Source: a virus. From it: 33,448 bases of DNA. Positions 21,040 to 32,030 of this stretch are shown one piece after another (the first letter of the stretch is position 1; every line of letters starts with the position of its first letter). Where the stretch lies: positions 1 to 33,448 of IMG/VR virus record IMGVR_UViG_3300020000_000048; one strand, given 5' to 3'. The position numbers and the translations under genes were made by a program. Under the pieces are notes generated by a model. It was not told where the DNA came from and did no database searches. It saw nothing but the letters and a program-made list of their open reading frames with translations.

Positions 21040-24000
21040 ATGGTAATGGCCCCGCAGGCATTCCCTGCACCACAGCCGTTCCCAACACCGCAACCGGACC
21101 CGCAGACGTACGGGCTTAGCCCGACCGAGCGGGGGCCGTTCATGCAGCCGTACCTGCCGCCGCCGACGCAGTTCATGTCACCGGCGACTCCTCCGGCGGG
21201 CGGGTCCCTGCTCGACCGGATGACGGCGGTGATGGGCTCCTCGGCGGCGCCTGACAACACGCTCACGCTCGACGACGCGATGGCACAGACCGACAAGGCC
21301 ATCGCCCGGCTCCAACAGGTCAACCCGGAGCTGGCCCAGCAGCTTCAATCGCAGCGGACGAACGTTGACCAGACCCAGGACGACGGTCCCGGCTTCTGGG
21401 GTAGCGTCCTCCAGACGGTGGCGTCGAGCCCGCTTGGCAAGGCGCTCGAGTTCATCAGTCGTCCGGCGCATATCATCCCCGAAATCCTGACGGACTCGGA
21501 GGATGGCGTCTGGAAGAACATTGGGGACGCCCTCTCCGGCCACTCTGACGCGTCCATGATTGATGTCATGGACAAGTACGGCATCCTGTCCGGCCACGAC
21601 ATGTTCTCCTCCATCGCGCAGAGCATCGTCTCGTTCGGGCTCGACATGGCGGTGGACCCCACCACGTACATCACAATGGGCCTCGGTTCTGTTGGCCGCG
21701 CCGCGGCCACCAGGGTCGGGGCCGAAGCTGTATTCAAGAGCACGATGCTCACCAAGGGCGCCACCGCCCTAGACGACCTCGCCGCCCGGGCAGGGGAGTC
21801 CCTCGGTATTGACCTCGCGACGGCCACCGCCGAGGAGTCCCGAGGCGCCGCGCTGAACCTCTTGCTGCACAACGTCACCGAGCAGAGTGCCAGCATGAGC
21901 CGCCTCGGACGGTGGGGCGCCCTCACGAAGGACCTCAGCGTCGTTGACAGGGACTTCGTCGGCGGCCCGTTGAGCCTCGCGCTCAAAGAGGGTGACCGCG
22001 AAATCGTCAACGGCGCCATCAGGTCGATGGACAACGCCCACAAGCTCATCGGGAAGTTCGGGCTGCAGCGCATCGGTCCTGAGATGGCAGAGGCCGCGGG
22101 GATAGACCTGGAGGCGACCAAGGGCGTCCTGCAGGGCATGAAGTCCACGGGCATGTTCGGCTCCCGCGCGGAGTACATGGCCGGTCGCTACGCCTCCGCT
22201 CTCGAAGGCGGGGTGAGGTTCTCCTTCCCAGGCATCCGCATCATCACACCGGCCCTCTGGGGTACCAGCAAGCTCGACTTCAGTCTAGGGCGCCGATTCT
22301 TCTCCGGCTTGTCCGGCCAGCTGCGCATCATGAAGGCCGTTGAGTCCGGCGCGCTCGAAGGGAGCGTGGGGCTCGAGGCTCTCCAGGCCGCGACGGAAGG
22401 CGGGTGGAGCAAGCTCGCCAGCGTCACCCCGCAGGTCGCACAGATGTTCGGCGACGGCGTGAGCGGCCGCGTTGGCACGGCATTCGCCCAGGCTTCGTGG
22501 CAAATCGGCGGCATCACCAGGAACCTGGGCTCGTTCGCTCTCGTGCGTGGCGGCGGCTTCGGGGGCCAGTTGGCCACGGACGCCCGTAAGACGGTGAACA
22601 CGATGAAGAAGGCCCTTCAGGGAGAGGCCATCTCCATCGAGACCCAGAACAGGTTCGCCCCGAGCATCCTTCAGGATGGGGCCGACCAGGGACTCCTACT
22701 GAATGAAGTTGGGGACCCCATCAAGAAGTGGAACGGCGGTACGCTGTCTCAGCCCGCCGTCCAGAGGACGCTGCATGCCAACGAGCGCAAGGTCCTCGCC
22801 GACACCGGCGACGACATGCTGGTCATCAAGCTCCTGGAGGGCCTGCCCTCTGAGGAGGCGCAGGCGATGGGCGCCGACAAGTGGTACGACATGCTCGCGG
22901 ACAACATCCGCCAGCAGGGCCTGCCCGAAGACCAGATGACCTCGATGCTCCAGAAGAACGAGGCGCGCCGCGCACTGGTCAAAGAGGCCGAGGACAAGGC
23001 GACCCCCGAGGCGCTGTACGCCGCCCGCCTGTACCGCGTCATCAGCAACCAGACGCGCACGATGCGCAACGAGCTGACCGGCCACGTCGCCGACTCCACC
23101 ATCCGAACGGCCGACCGGGCAGTCATCAACCCGGCCAACCGGCAGGTGGTCGAGACAGGCCACGCGGCCCAGCACGGCAGAACCTTCGAACTGGAACAGA
23201 GACTGGAGAGCGCCGCCGACACGCCGGGCTTTGGGCTCGAGCACATCACGGACTCGGAGTTCGGGCGCGGCTATGCCGTGCGCGAGGCCGAGGAGGCGTC
23301 GCCTTTCCCCGAGAACCCGAAGGGAGGTGGTCCTCTATCTCCCGAGCCTGACGGGCCTTCAGGCATGTTGCCACCCAAGCTAGAGCCGCCAACACTGCCG
23401 ACTTTGGACCGGGCCGCGCAGCCCGCTGACGAACTGAAGTTCACCCCCGAGCTTGACAAGGTAAAGCAAGACCTCCGCGACTCTATCGGCCTCACGCCGA
23501 AGAAGGATGTCCGTTGGGACCAGCCCGACACCATGACGGCCGAGGAGCTTCAGGACGCCTGGGACCCGCTGGAGCGCATCGCCCCCAAGGAGTACGACGA
23601 GACGCACGGCGGAAGCGCCGCCGCCTTCCGAGATATGCTGGAGAAGGAAGGCCAGAAGGAGCGAGTCCGCATCGTCTACGACCCGGACACGGGCGAGTAC
23701 ATGATGATTGACGGCCACCACAGAGTGGACGTGATGAAAGGCACCGGCAAGCGGCTGCACGTCGAGTGGGTCCCGGACCCCGAGACCATCGCCGACGCCC
23801 GTGCAGGCGGCCTCCCCGTGATGAAGCCCGCCGGTGGCACCCGGCTGACTCACGCCGAGGAGCAGGCCGCCCAGACTGACTTCGTCCAGAACCTCTTGGA
23901 CGCGATGGAAAACGGCGACACCGCCAAACTCGTTGACCTCACGGACGAGGGACCGATGAAGGTCGGGAACTTCACCGAGGCGCGGGACGTGGAGCTGAGC

Positions 24001-27000
24001 GCCGACGTGAGGCAGCTGGCCGCCGCGTTCGGGGTTCCCGAGGACCACCTGGACGCCATCGACAGCTTCGCGCAAATCGAGGCGCTCGACCCAAAGTGGC
24101 AGGAAATGCTCGGTCCGTACGCGAAGCTGGACGAGCTTCCTTCCGAGGTGGACAGCGAATACTGGGCCGCGAAGCTGGACAGCATCGACGCCTGGCACAT
24201 GTCTCGGCATAGCGATGACCCGCGCGTGAAAGAATGGCTCCGCCGCTCGCAGGGCTTGGACTGGGCCGAGAAAGATGAGCTGGCCGGGCACATCTTCGGA
24301 GACCCGCTCTCCGAGGACAGCGCATGGGGTTTGATGCCTCCCAGCGACTACCTGGAAATCATGGGTCCCGGCGCCTTGGACGCCGAGATGTCCTCGATGG
24401 ACGAAATCCTCGGCGAGGCGCTCGGCAAGCGGGCGGCCAACGAGCCCCGGTTCAGGGATATCGTTGGCAAGACGTTCGTCCAGAACCCGGAGCCGGAGAC
24501 CACCGTCGCGAAGTTCAAGGAACCGCTCGGGCGTCCCCGCAAGCGCGCGGTCGTGGCGATGGACAACCCGGTGTACATCAACAAGGACGCCGAGAAGCTC
24601 ATCGCGCAGGGCAAGCGGCCGGTCGCCGACATGAGCGACGTGTACGCCGACGCCGACAAGTTCGCGACCGAGACCATGAAGGCCACTAGCGAGGTATGGG
24701 ACGAGAAGATTCCCGCTCTGCTGGCCGACTCTAAGAAGTGGGCGAAGGTAGACCCGGGCGTGCAGGAGGTCCTGCGCGGCATGGGACTCGACCCCGAGGG
24801 CATGACGCAAGAGATGAAGCGCGTCACCCTGGAGGCCCAGGCCTCCCTCCACGCGCGACTCAAGACCCAGTTCATGCGCGAGATGGGGCACGACGGGGTA
24901 CTCATTCAGGAAGAGGGCAAGCTCCGCGGCGTGGTCTTCGACGGTGGCCTGACCACCGGGCAGAAGGCGCCCATCTGGGAGCTGAGCCAGGACGCCCCGG
25001 TGGACATGCCCGACCTCGGCTTCTATCATCGGCGCATGACGCCGGAGGTCCACGAGCTGATGCGGGGCAAGCCGGGCTTCATCGAGCGCCGGACGCCGGA
25101 GGAGTGGGACGCGGCGATGAGCCGCGAGACCAAGGACATGACGTATTCGGAGGCCGAGGCGCACATTCGGCAGAGTCTCCGTGAGCGCGGCTTCGCCATC
25201 GGTGACGACTACCAGGTCCTCGACCGAGACATCTCCCGGAATATCAACGCCTACGTGGATGGCATGGCGAACGACGCCGGTAGCGTCTTCCTCGGGCGCG
25301 AGGCCAAGCGCCTGGAGCGTCTGGGCCTGACCCGCTCGCCGTACGTCTCGAAGTTCGTCGGCCCGAGGTACGAGGGCACGCCGTCCAAGGCATTCATGAA
25401 CCAGGGCGGCTGGCTCTCGAAGCAGTCGGAGAAGCTCTGGGGCATCTCCCAGAAGGTCGCCCGCATCGAGCAGAGAGACGCGAAGGCGGGGCAGCGCGAG
25501 GTCGAGCACCTCCAGACGACCGTCGCCCAGTTGCACGAGCGCCTCCAGAACAGTCTGGACAAGCAGTCCGAAATGACCGCCCGCGCGCTCGCCGGTTCGT
25601 ACAACCCCGAGAGCGACCTGGGCAGTATGACGCGCGAGGAAGTAGAGCGGTACATGGCGAGGGTCAACAAGAGCCTAGCCAAGGTGGATGCCGAGGACCT
25701 CGGAGACGGTCTGTTCAAGTTCTCGAACAGCAAGCGCGACTACTACTTCACGAAGACCGAAGACGGCCGGGTGGCCGCCTATCGCTGGCGCGACAAGAAC
25801 ACCGGGAACGTTGAGACGATGCGCCTCCCGGACCCGGAGTACAAGGGCCAAGGCTACACGCTGATGAAGCAGGACTTCCAGGACCACGGCATCACGACGC
25901 TCGAGGCCCTGAGGAAGGACATCCGCAACCAGAACCTCTCCCCGCAGGCGACCGAGCTTCGCCGCCGGTACGCGCAGGAGCTACTGGAGAACCTGAAACC
26001 GGGTCTGCGGAAGCAGCTCGACAACCGGAACGACGAGCTGGCTCATGCCGCGATGCGGATGGACTGGCAGACACAGACGATGCGGGACGTGATGGAGGAG
26101 TGGAACCGAATCCGCTTCGGCACCGAGGCCCGAGTCGCCGAGCCGAAGGTCGCGCTGCACATCGGAGACCCGAACCAGGTCGGCATGAGCAAGGTGATGC
26201 TGCCCGGCCTGGACGGCATGTACATGCCCGCCTCGATGGCCGACGAGATGAACTTCGCCGCCCGTGGGTACAAGCACCTCAACGAGTTCCAGAAGACGTG
26301 GCGCCGATTCCTGTCTTTCTGGAAGGAGTGGGCGACCTGGGCTTGGCCCGGCTTCCATGTCCGGAACGCGATGGGCGGCTGGTTCAATAACTGGCTGGGC
26401 GGCGTGCAGTACGAGGACTACGTCGAGACCTTCCGCATGATGCGCGCCCGCCGGGAGATTGAGACCGGCGCCGAGGGCGAGGCCGCCAAGTGGTCCACCC
26501 GGAAGCTCTCCAAGGAGTTCCTCAGCAAGCACGGACTGAAGCAGTACTACTTCGGGTTCGAGCCGACGTACGGAGACCTCTCCGACCTGATGGTGAAGAA
26601 CGGAATCAACGCCGCCAACTCTCGCTCGTTCGGCGAGGCCCGAATCGGGGCCGAGCTTCTCGACAAGGAGATGGAGCGCCCGGCGAACAGCCCGTGGACG
26701 GTGCTCGATACCGCGATGGGCCGCAGTACAACGGTTGGGAAGCCCGGCCGCTTCATAGCTGGCAAGCTGCGCGGCACCGGGGAAATGACCGAGAACATGC
26801 TCCGCGGCGCGAGCTTCCTGCAGGGCATGAAGCAGATGGACGGGGACTTCATGGGTGCCCACCTGTTCACGATGATGAGGCACGGCGACTACGGCGACCT
26901 CTCGGACTGGGAGTACGGCGCCGTCCGAGACGTCCTCCCGTTCTACAAGTGGATGCGGACCAACACCCCGCTCCAGATTCACACGCTGTTCGAGAAGCCT

Positions 27001-27702
27001 GGGAAGCTGATGGCCGTGCTCCACGCGCGCGAGGCGGCGTGGCAGGCAGTCGGCCTGGACGACGAGGACCAGAAGAAGCTCCCGGCATGGATGCAGGAGG
27101 GACTGGTAGTCCCGACACCCGGCAGCACGTCGGAGGCAATGAACCTCGTGACCGCCGACCTGCCGATGAACGACCTGTACCAGGGCGCGGGCGAGTTCTT
27201 CTCACAGGCGCTCCCGCTGCTCCGGCCGTTCCTGGAGAGCTACGTCACCGAGAAATCTCTGTTCACCGGCAAGCCCATCGAGGGCGCCCCAGTGGCGGTG
27301 CCTTGGGTCCCGACCTTCATGGGAAAGATGCTGCAGCACATCGGCATCGGTAAAGTCGGCGCCACCGGCCAGTACTTCATCGACGACAAGCTCCAGAATG
27401 TCCTCGGGGTTGTGCCGGTGTTTAGCCGGTTCCGCAACTGGATTTACGAGGAGCCCACCCGCTCGCACCTTCGCGCGGGCACCATTGTCTCTACGATGGC
27501 GGGCATCGGCCTCCGCCCCTTCGGGGAGACCGACATGAGAAACGAGGAGTTGCGGTTCTACTACGGGCAGGTCCTTCCCCAGATTGAATACCTGAAGGAC
27601 ATGGGGTACCCGGTGCCTACCACCGAGGACCTTAACAACATGTACGGAGCCAGCAACAACGTGCTGCTGGCCGCGGGCGTGAACCCGCAGGGAGGTCTGT
27701 AA
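21040..27702 (+). CDS. Giant polyvalent internal virion protein (2220 residues)
   Basis: One uninterrupted frame. A Pro/Gln-rich start is followed by FGLDMAVDPTTYITMGLGS (about 198-217), a segment typical of large phage internal or polyvalent proteins. D891-G-H-H-R with a preceding strand (VRIVYDPDTGEYMMIDGHHRV in part) resembles the ParB/sulfiredoxin-type nuclease fold. About 1168-1305 has DNPVYIN, then GHDGV (1283-1287) and RGVVFDGG, like ADP-ribosyltransferase-type domains in polyvalent proteins. The C-terminal third has FHVRNAMGGW (1772-1781) and PFYKWMRTNTP (1967-1977), recurrent in this class. It is probably ejected with the DNA and may act on host targets early. Domain assignments are by pattern only. 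Confidence 0.88.
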   Translation: MVMAPQAFPAPQPFPTPQPDPQTYGLSPTERGPFMQPYLPPPTQFMSPATPPAGGSLLDRMTAVMGSSAAPDNTLTLDDAMAQTDKAIARLQQVNPELAQQLQSQRTNVDQTQDDGPGFWGSVLQTVASSPLGKALEFISRPAHIIPEILTDSEDGVWKNIGDALSGHSDASMIDVMDKYGILSGHDMFSSIAQSIVSFGLDMAVDPTTYITMGLGSVGRAAATRVGAEAVFKSTMLTKGATALDDLAARAGESLGIDLATATAEESRGAALNLLLHNVTEQSASMSRLGRWGALTKDLSVVDRDFVGGPLSLALKEGDREIVNGAIRSMDNAHKLIGKFGLQRIGPEMAEAAGIDLEATKGVLQGMKSTGMFGSRAEYMAGRYASALEGGVRFSFPGIRIITPALWGTSKLDFSLGRRFFSGLSGQLRIMKAVESGALEGSVGLEALQAATEGGWSKLASVTPQVAQMFGDGVSGRVGTAFAQASWQIGGITRNLGSFALVRGGGFGGQLATDARKTVNTMKKALQGEAISIETQNRFAPSILQDGADQGLLLNEVGDPIKKWNGGTLSQPAVQRTLHANERKVLADTGDDMLVIKLLEGLPSEEAQAMGADKWYDMLADNIRQQGLPEDQMTSMLQKNEARRALVKEAEDKATPEALYAARLYRVISNQTRTMRNELTGHVADSTIRTADRAVINPANRQVVETGHAAQHGRTFELEQRLESAADTPGFGLEHITDSEFGRGYAVREAEEASPFPENPKGGGPLSPEPDGPSGMLPPKLEPPTLPTLDRAAQPADELKFTPELDKVKQDLRDSIGLTPKKDVRWDQPDTMTAEELQDAWDPLERIAPKEYDETHGGSAAAFRDMLEKEGQKERVRIVYDPDTGEYMMIDGHHRVDVMKGTGKRLHVEWVPDPETIADARAGGLPVMKPAGGTRLTHAEEQAAQTDFVQNLLDAMENGDTAKLVDLTDEGPMKVGNFTEARDVELSADVRQLAAAFGVPEDHLDAIDSFAQIEALDPKWQEMLGPYAKLDELPSEVDSEYWAAKLDSIDAWHMSRHSDDPRVKEWLRRSQGLDWAEKDELAGHIFGDPLSEDSAWGLMPPSDYLEIMGPGALDAEMSSMDEILGEALGKRAANEPRFRDIVGKTFVQNPEPETTVAKFKEPLGRPRKRAVVAMDNPVYINKDAEKLIAQGKRPVADMSDVYADADKFATETMKATSEVWDEKIPALLADSKKWAKVDPGVQEVLRGMGLDPEGMTQEMKRVTLEAQASLHARLKTQFMREMGHDGVLIQEEGKLRGVVFDGGLTTGQKAPIWELSQDAPVDMPDLGFYHRRMTPEVHELMRGKPGFIERRTPEEWDAAMSRETKDMTYSEAEAHIRQSLRERGFAIGDDYQVLDRDISRNINAYVDGMANDAGSVFLGREAKRLERLGLTRSPYVSKFVGPRYEGTPSKAFMNQGGWLSKQSEKLWGISQKVARIEQRDAKAGQREVEHLQTTVAQLHERLQNSLDKQSEMTARALAGSYNPESDLGSMTREEVERYMARVNKSLAKVDAEDLGDGLFKFSNSKRDYYFTKTEDGRVAAYRWRDKNTGNVETMRLPDPEYKGQGYTLMKQDFQDHGITTLEALRKDIRNQNLSPQATELRRRYAQELLENLKPGLRKQLDNRNDELAHAAMRMDWQTQTMRDVMEEWNRIRFGTEARVAEPKVALHIGDPNQVGMSKVMLPGLDGMYMPASMADEMNFAARGYKHLNEFQKTWRRFLSFWKEWATWAWPGFHVRNAMGGWFNNWLGGVQYEDYVETFRMMRARREIETGAEGEAAKWSTRKLSKEFLSKHGLKQYYFGFEPTYGDLSDLMVKNGINAANSRSFGEARIGAELLDKEMERPANSPWTVLDTAMGRSTTVGKPGRFIAGKLRGTGEMTENMLRGASFLQGMKQMDGDFMGAHLFTMMRHGDYGDLSDWEYGAVRDVLPFYKWMRTNTPLQIHTLFEKPGKLMAVLHAREAAWQAVGLDDEDQKKLPAWMQEGLVVPTPGSTSEAMNLVTADLPMNDLYQGAGEFFSQALPLLRPFLESYVTEKSLFTGKPIEGAPVAVPWVPTFMGKMLQHIGIGKVGATGQYFIDDKLQNVLGVVPVFSRFRNWIYEEPTRSHLRAGTIVSTMAGIGLRPFGETDMRNEELRFYYGQVLPQIEYLKDMGYPVPTTEDLNNMYGASNNVLLAAGVNPQGGL

Positions 27703-29181: not shown

Positions 29182-29271
29182 ATGACCATTGGTTATTGGG
29201 CCGCGCTTATGTCCGCGGTTGCTGTCGGCGTTATCGTCGCTGAGCTGTTGACAAAGGCCTTCATCCACTAA
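29182..29271 (+). CDS. 29-residue single-pass membrane mini-protein
   Basis: A short gene missed by length cut-offs: ATG at 29182 to TAA at 29271. Upstream TTAGGAGGTGA (29167-29177) is close to a perfect complement of the 16S rRNA 3' end, the best ribosome binding site in the window. The peptide is M-T-I-G-Y-W, then a hydrophobic stretch AALMSAVAVGVIVAELL and the basic/polar end TKAFIH, giving one membrane helix. It is the last plus-strand gene before the convergent terminator. Function unknown; possibly a lysis modulator or membrane-acting toxin-like peptide. Expression is strongly suggested by the ribosome binding site, not proven. Confidence 0.75.
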   Translation: MTIGYWAALMSAVAVGVIVAELLTKAFIH

Positions 29272-29280
29272 CGAACCCGT

Positions 29281-29338
29281 CGGGAAGCTTCCTCCCCTTC
29301 CCGGCAAAGCAAAGGACCCCCCAACCGGGGGGTCCTTT
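29281..29338. terminator. Bidirectional terminator between convergent arms
   Basis: Two hairpins lie in tandem. The first pairs CGGGAAG (29281-29287) with CTTCCCG (29297-29303). The main one is AAAGGACCCCCC (29311-29322), loop AACC, GGGGGGTCCTTT (29327-29338), a perfect 12-bp stem. It ends in TTTT on the plus strand and has the matching A-run for the minus strand. It sits between the last plus-strand gene and the end of the minus-strand operon, so it can stop both transcripts. Confidence 0.93.
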
Positions 29339-29359
29339 TGCATGTAAGGTGCTGTCAGC

Positions 29360-29974
29360 TTAGCCGATGCTACGCTTTCTTGCGGCGTAGAGCGAGGCCA
29401 ATCCGAGCAGCAAGAGACCGCCACCCGCGACGTACAACCAGGGGTTGATGCCGGTGAAGGCTGTCTTCTTTGGCGGCACGACGCCCTTCTTCGGCCCATT
29501 CGGCGAAGGCGGAGTAATCGTGACGGTGGGGGGCGGGGTGGAACTCGTGCTCGTGCTCGACGGTGATGGCGTCGGACTGTCCGATGGGGACGATGTGGGT
29601 GTGGGTGTAGGACTTTCGTCCGTCGTCAGCACACATCCTGCCTCCAGGACCTCCGCTCCGGTCTCACCGTTCGGGAACACGAAGTCGAGGTTCTTCCCGG
29701 GGTAGCTGAACACACCGCCGTACTTGTCGGTGTACTCGTACGCCGGGATGATGTCCCCGCCCAGGCCGTTGCCGACCTGCTCGTGGTCATTGTGTCCCCC
29801 TTTGACATAGCCGTCCGACGCGATGTCCGTCGTGATGACCACATAGGGGTTGGTCGCCGAGCCGGTTCGGTGGCACAGGGTCACCTTGTGCTCGGGTGGC
29901 TTGGTGGCATTCGCGGCGGTCATCAGACCGAGCGAGGCCACCACGGCCACGAGTGGTGCCAGGAACTTCTTCAT
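29360..29974 (-). CDS. Secreted, sortase-type wall-anchored surface protein
   Basis: Predicted 204-residue protein starting at 29974 (RBS GGGAGGAC upstream). Signal peptide MKKFLAPLVAVVASLGLMTAANA, cleavage after about residue 23. Residues 28-115 contain HKVTLCHRTGSATNPYVVIT, GHNDHEQ, GGDIIPAYEY and a second Cys (C114), a pattern familiar from actinobacterial secreted proteins. A Ser/Thr/Pro stalk follows (about 120-170). The C-terminus is TAFTG (171-175), a hydrophobic helix to about 196 and basic ARKRS, a variant sorting signal of the LAxTG/LPxTG class lacking the leading Leu. It would put a phage protein on the host wall; superinfection exclusion is a possible role, as inference. Last gene of the minus operon, ATGA-coupled to the mini-ORF upstream. 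Confidence 0.85.
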   Translation of the reverse strand: MKKFLAPLVAVVASLGLMTAANATKPPEHKVTLCHRTGSATNPYVVITTDIASDGYVKGGHNDHEQVGNGLGGDIIPAYEYTDKYGGVFSYPGKNLDFVFPNGETGAEVLEAGCVLTTDESPTPTPTSSPSDSPTPSPSSTSTSSTPPPTVTITPPSPNGPKKGVVPPKKTAFTGINPWLYVAGGGLLLLGLASLYAARKRSIG

Positions 29975-30060
29975 CCTTCGTCCTCCCAGATGGCTACGGG
30001 GTCGATGGTCTCGATGTCCCGAGGGTCCACCCCGTAGTAGTTCGTGAGCATGTCGGTCAT
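29971..30060 (-). CDS. 29-residue coupled mini-ORF
   Basis: A 30-codon frame from ATG at 30060 to TGA at 29971. Both ends overlap neighbours by ATGA: its start overlaps the stop of the 30332-30057 gene and its stop overlaps the ATG of the wall-protein gene. The peptide is acidic, with YYGVDPRDIETIDPVAIWED. Its GAGGAC codons supply the ribosome binding site for the wall-protein gene, so it may be a real small protein or a translational coupler. Nothing else is recognised. Confidence 0.6.
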   Translation of the reverse strand: MTDMLTNYYGVDPRDIETIDPVAIWEDEG

Positions 30061-30332
30061 CCAATCTTGATGCCCTTCCACCACTCACGCTCCTCTCTCA
30101 GCAGCTCGCGCGTTATCTTGCGGCGCATGCTGCGGTTTACGGGCTGCCCCTCACGGGTCGGGATGCGAAACACTTCATCGGCGAGTAGGGCAGCTGCCCG
30201 CTTCCTCGCACCCCTAGGCGCCGACCAGATGAGCAGCGCCTCCGGCTGAGTCCTCAGCCAGTTCTGCATGTGGTCGAGCAGGCGCTCGACTGCAAGCTCT
30301 ACCTCCGCGGGGGAGGTGATTTCACTTTCCAT
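30057..30332 (-). CDS. Small basic helical protein, unknown
   Basis: Predicted 91-residue protein. Helices rich in Glu and Leu at the start (SPAEVELAVERLLDHMQNWL) are followed by a basic region (RGARKRAAALLADEVFRIP; RSMRRKITRELLREEREWW). The charge pattern suggests nucleic-acid binding or a host-takeover protein, but no family is recognised. The start overlaps the previous gene by 11 bases and lacks a strong ribosome binding site, implying coupling. Its stop forms an ATGA overlap with the mini-ORF. Confidence 0.75.
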   Translation of the reverse strand: MESEITSPAEVELAVERLLDHMQNWLRTQPEALLIWSAPRGARKRAAALLADEVFRIPTREGQPVNRSMRRKITRELLREEREWWKGIKIG

Positions 30333-30540
30333 GATACACGCTCGCGTTCTTGTAGCCGTCGAGCGCCAGAGCCTCGAAGCGGTCGGGGTCGATTCCGGCG
30401 AGCATGGCCCGCATGGACTTGTCCTGCCGACGCCAGCGGGGCTTCCGGAGGACCCCGGCCAGGTCGAGCGGCTGGTTCTCAGCCACCTTCTCCGACCGAA
30501 GGACTTCGCGGACCCTCCGGAGCTTCTTCGTGGTGTTCAT
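30322..30540 (-). CDS. Small basic protein, unknown
   Basis: Predicted 72-residue protein from ATG at 30540, preceded by AGGGAAAGGGA. An alternative ATG at 30573 overlaps the upstream stop (ATGA) and would add 11 residues, but its GAGGA abuts the codon. The sequence is basic (TTKKLRRVREVLRSEKVAEN, RKPRWRRQDKSMRAMLAG) with a mixed end (DPDRFEALALDGYKNASVY). It may bind nucleic acid; family not recognised. Confidence 0.7.
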   Translation of the reverse strand: MNTTKKLRRVREVLRSEKVAENQPLDLAGVLRKPRWRRQDKSMRAMLAGIDPDRFEALALDGYKNASVYHGK

Positions 30541-30569
30541 GCCGTCCCTTTCCCTAGAGGTTAGTACTA

Positions 30570-30701
30570 TCATTCCTCATCATCGGGCCAATGCGAGAAC
30601 AAGGACCACGCCAGCAGCACGGTTACCACCGCCGCGGCTGTCATCAACAGCAGCAGCAAGTACGAGTGGTAGAACGGCTGGAAGTCGAAGTGCCAGTTCA
30701 T
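30570..30701 (-). CDS. 43-residue single-pass membrane protein
   Basis: ATG at 30701 with GGAGGGA about 9 bases upstream. The peptide begins MNWHFDFQPFYHS, then has one membrane helix YLLLLLMTAAAVVTVLLAWSL and an acidic end HWPDDEE. The long in-frame extension upstream is Arg/Ser-rich shadow and was rejected. Its start overlaps the stop of the zinc-finger-like gene by ATGA. Function unknown; small membrane proteins in early phage operons are often host-takeover factors (inference). Confidence 0.72.
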   Translation of the reverse strand: MNWHFDFQPFYHSYLLLLLMTAAAVVTVLLAWSLFSHWPDDEE

Positions 30702-30877
30702 CCCCGGAAATCCCTCCTGTAGTCCTCCAGCGCGGGGCAGCTGCGCATGTGCGTGACTGGCATTCGGCCCGACACCTCCCCGCCGCAGGACGGACACAGG
30801 AAGCCCCCGTTCAAGAGGTCCTCGATGGCGTTTAGCCAGGCAAGGGTCAGGTCCCAACCGTACAGCTCTTTCACCAT
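30698..30877 (-). CDS. 59-residue zinc-finger-like protein
   Basis: ATG at 30877 overlaps the TGA of the Cas4-like gene (TGATG). The sequence MVKELYGWDLTLAWLNAIED is helical; it is followed by C28-PS-C31 and later H43-xxx-C47, a possible CCHC zinc site. It ends in DYRRDFRG. Direct coupling to the nuclease gene suggests a partner role, which is inference. Family not recognised. Confidence 0.72.
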   Translation of the reverse strand: MVKELYGWDLTLAWLNAIEDLLNGGFLCPSCGGEVSGRMPVTHMRSCPALEDYRRDFRG

Positions 30878-31815
30878 CACCAGACGTAGCTTCCCGGCTT
30901 CCGCTTCGCGAGGCACGTCTGGAAGTAGCATACCGGCGGGCCAGGGCATGTCCAGTCCCCGGACTCCCCTCCCCACACTTCGTCGGTGTCGTACGTGTGG
31001 TTGTTGTCCGGGTTGGTCCAGGGCTCCGGCCACTCCGGGTAGGACTCGAGCGCCCGCCGGAGCAGGTGCAGCCGCGGCCGGATGGTGTCCAGGACTTCCG
31101 CATCGTTCCAGACGTACGGGAGCCTCGGCTGGCGCTTCATCACCTTGCCGTTGACTCCGCGGATGCCCTCGGCCTGCCGCTTGTACACCATCACCTTCGG
31201 CCGCTTCGGGCCGACAAACACGATGCCGACCATCTCCGGCAGCTCGTCCCGCGGGTCGAACGCCAGCTCGGCGTCCTCGGGGTCCCACCTCTCGGCGTGG
31301 CGGCAGATGAAGGCGTTTATCATCAGCTGCTCCGTCTGGTTGTGGAACAGGTTCTGCATCGGGATACTGTTCTGGTCAGTCGGGAACTTGTAGTCGAGCA
31401 GGTGCTCCGCCGTCAGGAGGTCGGGCTGCCCCGAAATCTCCTCACCGTCAATGGTCGTGAAGAATCGGACCTCGGCGATGGCGCGACTGCTCTGGGCGAA
31501 CTCGAGCATCCCGTGGCCCGCCGTCCCCCGGAGCCGGGAGTACAGCTCGTTCAAGTCCTCCACGTAATCCTCGCGGCGCTTGATGACCTCGTTCCGGAAG
31601 CATGACGTCACGAGGGCGGTCGTGCTAATCATGTCGCCCCGGCTCTGGACCTGCGACAGGGCGGCGTTCGCCATCTCGAACGTCCAATGGCTGTCCAGCA
31701 GGTTCGCCTCGGCCAGCTCTTCCAGCAATGCCTCGGGGGTCACCCACTCCGGCTTGGTACCGGCGTGGGGGATGGCCTCCCGCGCGTTGGGCTTGACAAC
31801 CCCTACGAGAGGCAC
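30877..31815 (-). CDS. Cas4-like PD-(D/E)XK exonuclease with iron-sulphur cysteines
   Basis: Predicted 312-residue nuclease from GTG at 31815. RecB/Cas4-type core: H101 (AGHGMLE), E115 region, D132 in GQPDLL, D141-Y-K143 and Q160/E163 (NQTEQLMINAF), matching the H-D-[DE]xK-Q order of the family. C72 in the N-terminal part and C290, C296, C301 near the C-terminus are placed as in Cas4/AddB-type 4Fe-4S clusters. There are no CRISPR genes in the window. Such phage enzymes probably act in replication, recombination or DNA-end processing. It overlaps the upstream gene by 13 bases and is coupled to the 59-residue gene downstream. Confidence 0.86.
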   Translation of the reverse strand: MPLVGVVKPNAREAIPHAGTKPEWVTPEALLEELAEANLLDSHWTFEMANAALSQVQSRGDMISTTALVTSCFRNEVIKRREDYVEDLNELYSRLRGTAGHGMLEFAQSSRAIAEVRFFTTIDGEEISGQPDLLTAEHLLDYKFPTDQNSIPMQNLFHNQTEQLMINAFICRHAERWDPEDAELAFDPRDELPEMVGIVFVGPKRPKVMVYKRQAEGIRGVNGKVMKRQPRLPYVWNDAEVLDTIRPRLHLLRRALESYPEWPEPWTNPDNNHTYDTDEVWGGESGDWTCPGPPVCYFQTCLAKRKPGSYVW

Positions 31816-32030
31816 AGGTCTCCCCTCGGGGGAACGTTGTCGTCCTTGCGGTTCCGCCGGTTCCGCTCATTCTCCGGGGACAGGACCCAGGAGTCGAAGC
31901 GGTAGGACTGCCACCATGCGACGGCGGTCAGCACCAGGCAGAAGATGATGATGGGCCAGGACCCGACCAGGATGCCGGTCACGATGCCCATACCGGCGAT
32001 GGTCGCGACCACGGTGTTCAGCGTGCTCAC
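31803..32030 (-). CDS. Small two-segment membrane protein
   Basis: Predicted 75-residue protein from GTG at 32030, preceded by GGGAG and overlapping the previous stop as GTGA. Hydrophobic segments VVATIAGMGIVTGILVGSW and IIIFCLVLTAVAWW are separated by one Pro, giving a hairpin or one long helix. The C-terminus is charged (ENERNRRNRKDD). It has no known motif. It lies between a second small membrane protein and the nuclease. Confidence 0.75.
   Translation of the reverse strand: MSTLNTVVATIAGMGIVTGILVGSWPIIIFCLVLTAVAWWQSYRFDSWVLSPENERNRRNRKDDNVPPRGDLCLS

Follow-up and report, generated by a model that had tools for sequence, protein, structure and literature searches.

A predicted phage-encoded surface protein whose uncatalogued domain occurs in both phages and bacteria and is linked to sortases

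Class E sortases accept proteins with an LAXTG sorting signal, and their S4 pocket has been modelled as non-polar (PMC5148588). Surface proteins have also been connected with phage resistance. Llp of phage T5 is described as a lipoprotein of the envelope that acts in superinfection exclusion (PMC9586334), and phage resistance is attributed to CwpV, a wall protein of C. difficile (PMC4737114). The envelope superinfection-exclusion proteins that we found in the literature act mostly in diderm hosts. Literature searches returned no paper describing the domain reported below, nor any on a phage-encoded sortase.

The locus described here lies in a 33,448 bp virus contig from IMG/VR (GC content 64%), termed the window. 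Its main point is an uncatalogued domain that is common to phages and bacteria and is linked to sortases.

Anatomy of the predicted surface-protein gene and its operon

The gene is encoded on the minus strand from 29974 to 29360, with an ATG start codon at 29974–29972 and a TAA stop codon at 29362–29360. The first-pass annotation had placed it correctly, leaving the strand unstated. Its parts are as follows.

29360–29974, minus strand: coding sequence of the predicted surface-display protein, 204 residues (reading frame and homologues)
29906–29974, minus strand: signal peptide, residues 1–23 (MKKFLAPLVAVVASLGLMTAANA), likely cut after ANA (hydropathy; similar N-termini in relatives)
29624–29911, minus strand: conserved C/H domain, approximately residues 24–116, CHxTG...H..H...GDIIP...YPGKN...GC (alignments A3–A6, our own HMM searches, AlphaFold model)
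29465–29629, minus strand: S/T/P-rich stalk, residues 116–170 (composition)
29450–29464, minus strand: TAFTG, a sorting-signal-like pentapeptide, residues 171–175 (TIGR01167 score; family survey)
29360–29449, minus strand: transmembrane helix and basic tail (INPWLYVAGGGLLLLGLASLYAARKRSIG), with the stop codon (hydropathy; family survey)

The N-terminus consists of KK followed by a hydrophobic core (residues 4–22; best 19-residue Kyte-Doolittle mean 1.82) that ends in AANA; this hydropathy and AxA-type end fit the N-terminal signal peptide expected of a canonical sortase substrate. The domain contains, in order, CHRTG (within HKVTLCHRTG, residues 29–38), GGH..DH, GGDIIP (residues 72–77), YPGKN, and a closing Cys114. 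In the stalk, Ser, Thr, and Pro account for 73% of residues 116–171. The C-terminal helix has a 19-residue hydropathy mean of 1.74 from residue 180 (1.79 over 17 residues) and is followed by the basic tail ARKRSIG, the order found in sortase substrates. The signal peptide, Cys-bearing domain, stalk, and sorting-like C-terminus named in the first-pass annotation are thus all present; Cys114, which is conserved in the family, had escaped it. A chance open reading frame was ruled out by the architecture and the homology.

The surface gene is the last of a leftward operon. From an exonuclease-like gene (31815–30877) down, neighbours in a run of seven successive minus-strand genes adjoin or overlap each other by 1–11 bases, and the last two junctions are ATGA overlaps (30057/30060 and 29971/29974). 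The surface gene ends at a bidirectional terminator. Its surroundings comprise the following features.

29312–29340, no strand assigned: bidirectional intrinsic terminator between convergent operons (GC-rich stem-loop; minus strand −29.8 kcal/mol, z −4.0)
29971–30060, minus strand: 29-residue ORF (MTDMLTNYYGVDPRDIETIDPVAIWEDEG), joined by ATGA overlaps to the surface gene on one side and the preceding gene on the other
30057–30332, minus strand: 91-residue ORF of the same operon, without Pfam match
30322–30573, minus strand: 83-residue ORF of the same operon, without Pfam match
30570–30701, minus strand: small membrane-protein ORF (MNWHFDFQPFYHSYLLLLLMTAAAVVTVLLAWSLFSHWPDDEE), start at 30701 read by eye
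30698–30877, minus strand: 59-residue ORF with a CPSC motif, touching the exonuclease-like gene
30877–31815, minus strand: exonuclease-like gene (weak match to phrog_2139, 0.00043)
31803–32030, minus strand: membrane-protein ORF, 75 residues
32469–33419, minus strand: C-terminal part of a family A DNA polymerase, close to the end of the contig (PF00476, 3.3e-58; phrog_17, 2e-70)

With the DNA polymerase A gene and the exonuclease-like gene upstream on the same strand and the genes overlapping or abutting, the proposed grouping with replication genes holds, and we infer early expression of the surface gene from this operon content. The late genes (terminase, portal, head, and tail fibre) run in the opposite direction from the left end of the window. 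They include a 2220-residue ORF without PHROG or Pfam match (21040–27702, plus strand). Just before the terminator, a tiny membrane ORF (MTIGYWAALMSAVAVGVIVAELLTKAFIH; 29182–29271, plus strand) lies behind a strong GGAGG. An AT-rich stretch within this high-GC genome (29030–29145) carries repeated ACTGAATCATACTGAA-like units and is possibly regulatory.

The terminase, portal, and major head protein genes in the record, together with the anchor architecture of the relatives described below, support the earlier claim of surface display by a phage-encoded protein. It is extremely improbable that the protein is instead virion-associated or non-functional: it has a signal peptide, a membrane helix, and an anchor motif, and its gene is separate from the late structural operon, being encoded on the other strand and past the terminator, although a homologue in phage Racecar (gp190) comes after a minor tail gene, and expression timing may therefore vary.

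The window contig is probably incomplete. Its head protein has distant matches, among them proteins of Myxococcus phages Mx8 and Mx9, Stenotrophomonas phage BUCT555, and a TM7 phage. Since the terminase, portal, head, and polymerase matches are distant and scattered, no specific host is claimed; the host is probably a high-GC bacterium of the Gram-positive type, plausibly an actinobacterium.

A domain shared by unrelated phages and bacteria

The domain of the window protein belongs to no Pfam, NCBIfam, or PHROG family, and four of its relatives likewise have no Pfam or NCBIfam family over the domain. The PADLOC families gave no match over it, hitting the low-complexity stalk at 0.0098, and a sequence search of the PDB also matched the stalk only. 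A plasmid search gave chance hits only. Scans of viral and genome contigs with the single protein found nothing, whereas patterns built on CHxTG and GDIIP recovered relatives in proteins of Arthrobacter, Pseudarthrobacter, Thermoleophilia, Chloroflexi, and Saccharimonadia. A profile search detected the domain in 12 of the 396 Actinomycetota genomes and 9 of the 192 Patescibacteria genomes covered, each count taking in one genome previously known as a carrier.

The C, H, D, I, and final C of the domain are invariant across dozens of independent proteins, and its recurrence is therefore more than chance. The window protein has the C-H, second H, D-I-I-P, and final C that form invariant or nearly invariant columns in alignments A3–A6. 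Two forms were distinguished: a short one (GDIIPAPxxGCP) that is often repeated, and one lengthened by a G-x-N-W/L-D...G...GC extension. The window protein is of the longer form. A first AlphaFold model was poor (pLDDT 71.6); the better one (pLDDT 76, pTM 0.68, moderate) predicts a small, β-rich fold with one helix. Comparison of the two predicted models with the PDB revealed nothing significant, a missing match being no proof of a new fold. The conserved pair of Cys residues suggests a disulfide; the His and Asp, also conserved, may form a ligand site.

Homologues in named phages are gp82 of Arthrobacter phages Qui and Paella and gp190 of Racecar and Talia1610. In IMG/VR, a profile-guided scan gave seven carrier contigs and two HMM-filtered pattern scans gave 16 more, some of these being near-copies. 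A terminase is present in seven carrier records (G001, G002, G003, G006, G007, G609, and G616), and endolysin and ribonucleotide reductase neighbours support the viral nature of another (L026). The other carriers, including G005 and the lake contigs, have no terminase match, and their viral status is the IMG/VR classification. An integrase lies near one homologue (L029:9588–10529), so some carriers may be temperate. The neighbourhood of another (L024:11928–13463) includes an ATPase with an additional match to a phage auxiliary-gene family for porphyrin biosynthesis.

The closest relative (L107, in the 40.1 kb record 3300048080_000413, G609, which also contains a terminase) shares 44.6% identity over 112 residues (7e-20). 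Searched by tblastn without any profile, the window protein alone matched L107, L084, L143, L148, L009, L017, and others at 7e-20 to 2e-8, E-values that apply to a small, pattern-chosen set of loci. When 37 reading frames of the window were compared with nearly the whole of G609, the surface gene was the only match; against nearly the whole record of L143 (G615), it was accompanied by weak polymerase and tail-fibre matches only. For the remaining carriers, the comparison covered the stretch around the gene. Apart from this gene, the window phage has almost nothing in common with the nearly complete records that contain L107 and L143, while many carrier records hold a terminase. This is the pattern expected of a mobile accessory gene, and the gene therefore appears to be cargo that passes among phages unrelated in other respects.

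The distribution of the domain also bears on a different origin and role, namely a captured host surface gene serving adhesion, aggregation, nutrient or metal capture, or shielding rather than phage exclusion. Actinomycetota, Patescibacteria, and Chloroflexi have the domain in wall and secreted proteins, phage and cellular rows intermix on the mostly unresolved tree of the longer form, and the invariant His and Cys residues offer a possible binding site for a ligand or metal. Yet an operon shared with replication genes leaves little time for effects on cell fitness, and no integrase was seen in the window, a possibly incomplete contig. We regard this alternative as rather doubtful.

Candidate sorting signal, possible anchoring, and joined sortases

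TAFTG scored 14.8 bits against the NCBIfam LPXTG model TIGR01167, below its cut-off of 15.9, and fell far under the cut-offs of the GVDTG and LAVTG models. It departs from the L[P/A]xTG pentapeptide in having Thr rather than Leu at P4. The first-pass annotation was right to doubt it for the missing leucine: because the S4 pocket of class E sortases is modelled as non-polar, Thr at P4 is a real weakness.

Its position, however, is that of the family's sorting signal. A survey by a simple regular expression and a hydropathy window found [x][P/A]x[T/M]G directly before the helix in 10 of the 11 phage proteins with a C-terminal helix, the window protein included (TAFTG, MPDTG, LPEMG, LPETG, LAETG, LAYTG, LAHTG, LPATG, LPLTG, and LPVTG; L107 is the exception), and TAFTG thus occupies the place of this signal. 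Thirteen cellular relatives combine [LM][PA]xTG with a helix and a basic tail. The full series, from a signal peptide through an S/T/P- or P-rich stalk and [LM][PA]xTG to the helix and basic tail, recurs in phage and bacterial relatives alike. Among siblings in virus contigs, the class E form is represented by LAYTG, LAHTG, and LAETG. From its position and these siblings, TAFTG can be argued to be a degenerate class-E-like signal. Four phage versions (L095, L025, L023, and L029) have no anchor.

The protein is likely exported and displayed on the surface of the infected cell, by wall or membrane, and covalent wall attachment appears distinctly the more probable of these options. Permanent retention in the membrane, with TAFTG left uncleaved and the protein acting there, e.g., on DNA entry or with the small membrane proteins of its operon, seems unlikely. 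It would agree with the score of TAFTG below the LPXTG cut-off, with the helix and basic tail lacking a directly preceding xTG in L107 and in three Arthrobacter proteins (L009, L012, and L016), and with the two further membrane ORFs in the operon. Conversely, an xAxTG lies exactly at the family's sorting-signal position, and the long S/T/P stalk fits the crossing of a wall.

A further link to sortases was found in lake-phage contigs. In L097, L115, and L133, the frame encoding domain and stalk ends at TTTAAAA-TAA while the −1 frame continues into a sortase domain; L083 is a shortened variant of L097. In L091, the frame passes TTTTTTA shortly before its stop codon, and the −1 frame again enters a sortase domain. 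Pfam PF04203 is above its cut-off in L097, L091, and L133, and in the record of L115. A domain-stalk-sortase fusion also exists as a single open frame (L119:4746–5984). The joining in the lake-phage contigs is apparently by −1 frameshifting; it is unlikely that several contigs contain an assembly error at one and the same site. Read by eye, the catalytic Arg of these sortases seems to be replaced, which makes their activity uncertain. In G005, a sortase with His, Cys, and Arg is encoded just downstream of an LPETG homologue (L159:1381–1890 and 574–1293); the viral origin of this contig, which has no terminase match, is unsure.

These arrangements could also indicate a wall-remodelling or sortase-associated factor, the domain binding the wall and working with sortases or lytic enzymes before lysis. 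The sortase fusions, the sortase gene beside the homologue in G005, and the transglycosylase and endolysin adjoining the homologue in L026 are in line with such a role, but no sortase was found in the window and no wall enzyme was recognised in the surface-gene operon; we consider it quite improbable.

Proposed function and comparison with known systems

Our preferred reading, held tentatively and at somewhat below even confidence, is that the gene is mobile phage cargo whose product, displayed on the infected cell, would alter the surface against further phages. The protein would be exported by the Sec pathway and held by its C-terminal helix. A host sortase of the class E kind would then link it to the wall if TAFTG is accepted; otherwise it would stay in the membrane, and in either case the C/H domain would project outward on the stalk. 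Being made alongside replication proteins, it would change the surface before lysis. With a wall receptor covered or occupied, further phages might adsorb or inject poorly, an outcome that our analysis favours with comparable reserve. Superinfection exclusion, for which T5 Llp and CwpV are precedents, is plausible as one of several options, and it best suits a mobile accessory gene so placed; against it, the same domain occurs in bacterial surface proteins without a known anti-phage role.

More broadly, and speculatively, the C/H domain may define an unrecognised class of wall-display proteins borne by many unrelated phages of monoderm hosts. Host sortases would anchor them, or else a sortase that the phage itself supplies as a programmed −1 frameshift fusion, and they would determine which phages gain entry to the infected cell; we hold this generalisation to be doubtful. 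If true, a recurrent domain placed by unrelated phages on the monoderm surface, in some cases together with a sortase, would offer a general approach to phage remodelling of that surface. Since two groups of isolated phages on Arthrobacter globiformis (Qui and Racecar) have homologues, this reading is directly testable.

Among known systems, substrates of class E and class A sortases (LAXTG and LPXTG; e.g., Streptomyces chaplins via SrtE1/SrtE2) resemble the window protein in the signal peptide, the xAxTG before the helix, and the basic tail. The window protein differs in having Thr instead of Leu at P4, in being phage-encoded, and in its uncatalogued domain. CwpV is a wall surface protein with a reported anti-phage effect, but it is a cellular gene product with other domains and another anchoring. 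T5 Llp and other envelope exclusion proteins are likewise phage-encoded and lie in the envelope of the infected host, a location that we infer for the window protein; Llp is an outer-membrane lipoprotein of a diderm host, and no sequence relation is expected. L107, the best match, also has a helix and basic tail but lacks the xTG motif, and its record has no other match to a window protein. Gp82 of Qui and Paella and gp190 of Racecar and Talia1610, annotated only as membrane or hypothetical proteins, have the same domain, signal peptide, and C-terminal helix, with LPEMG in Qui and MPDTG in Racecar; they differ from the window protein in the region between domain and helix, which lacks this S/T/P stalk, and belong to much larger phages.
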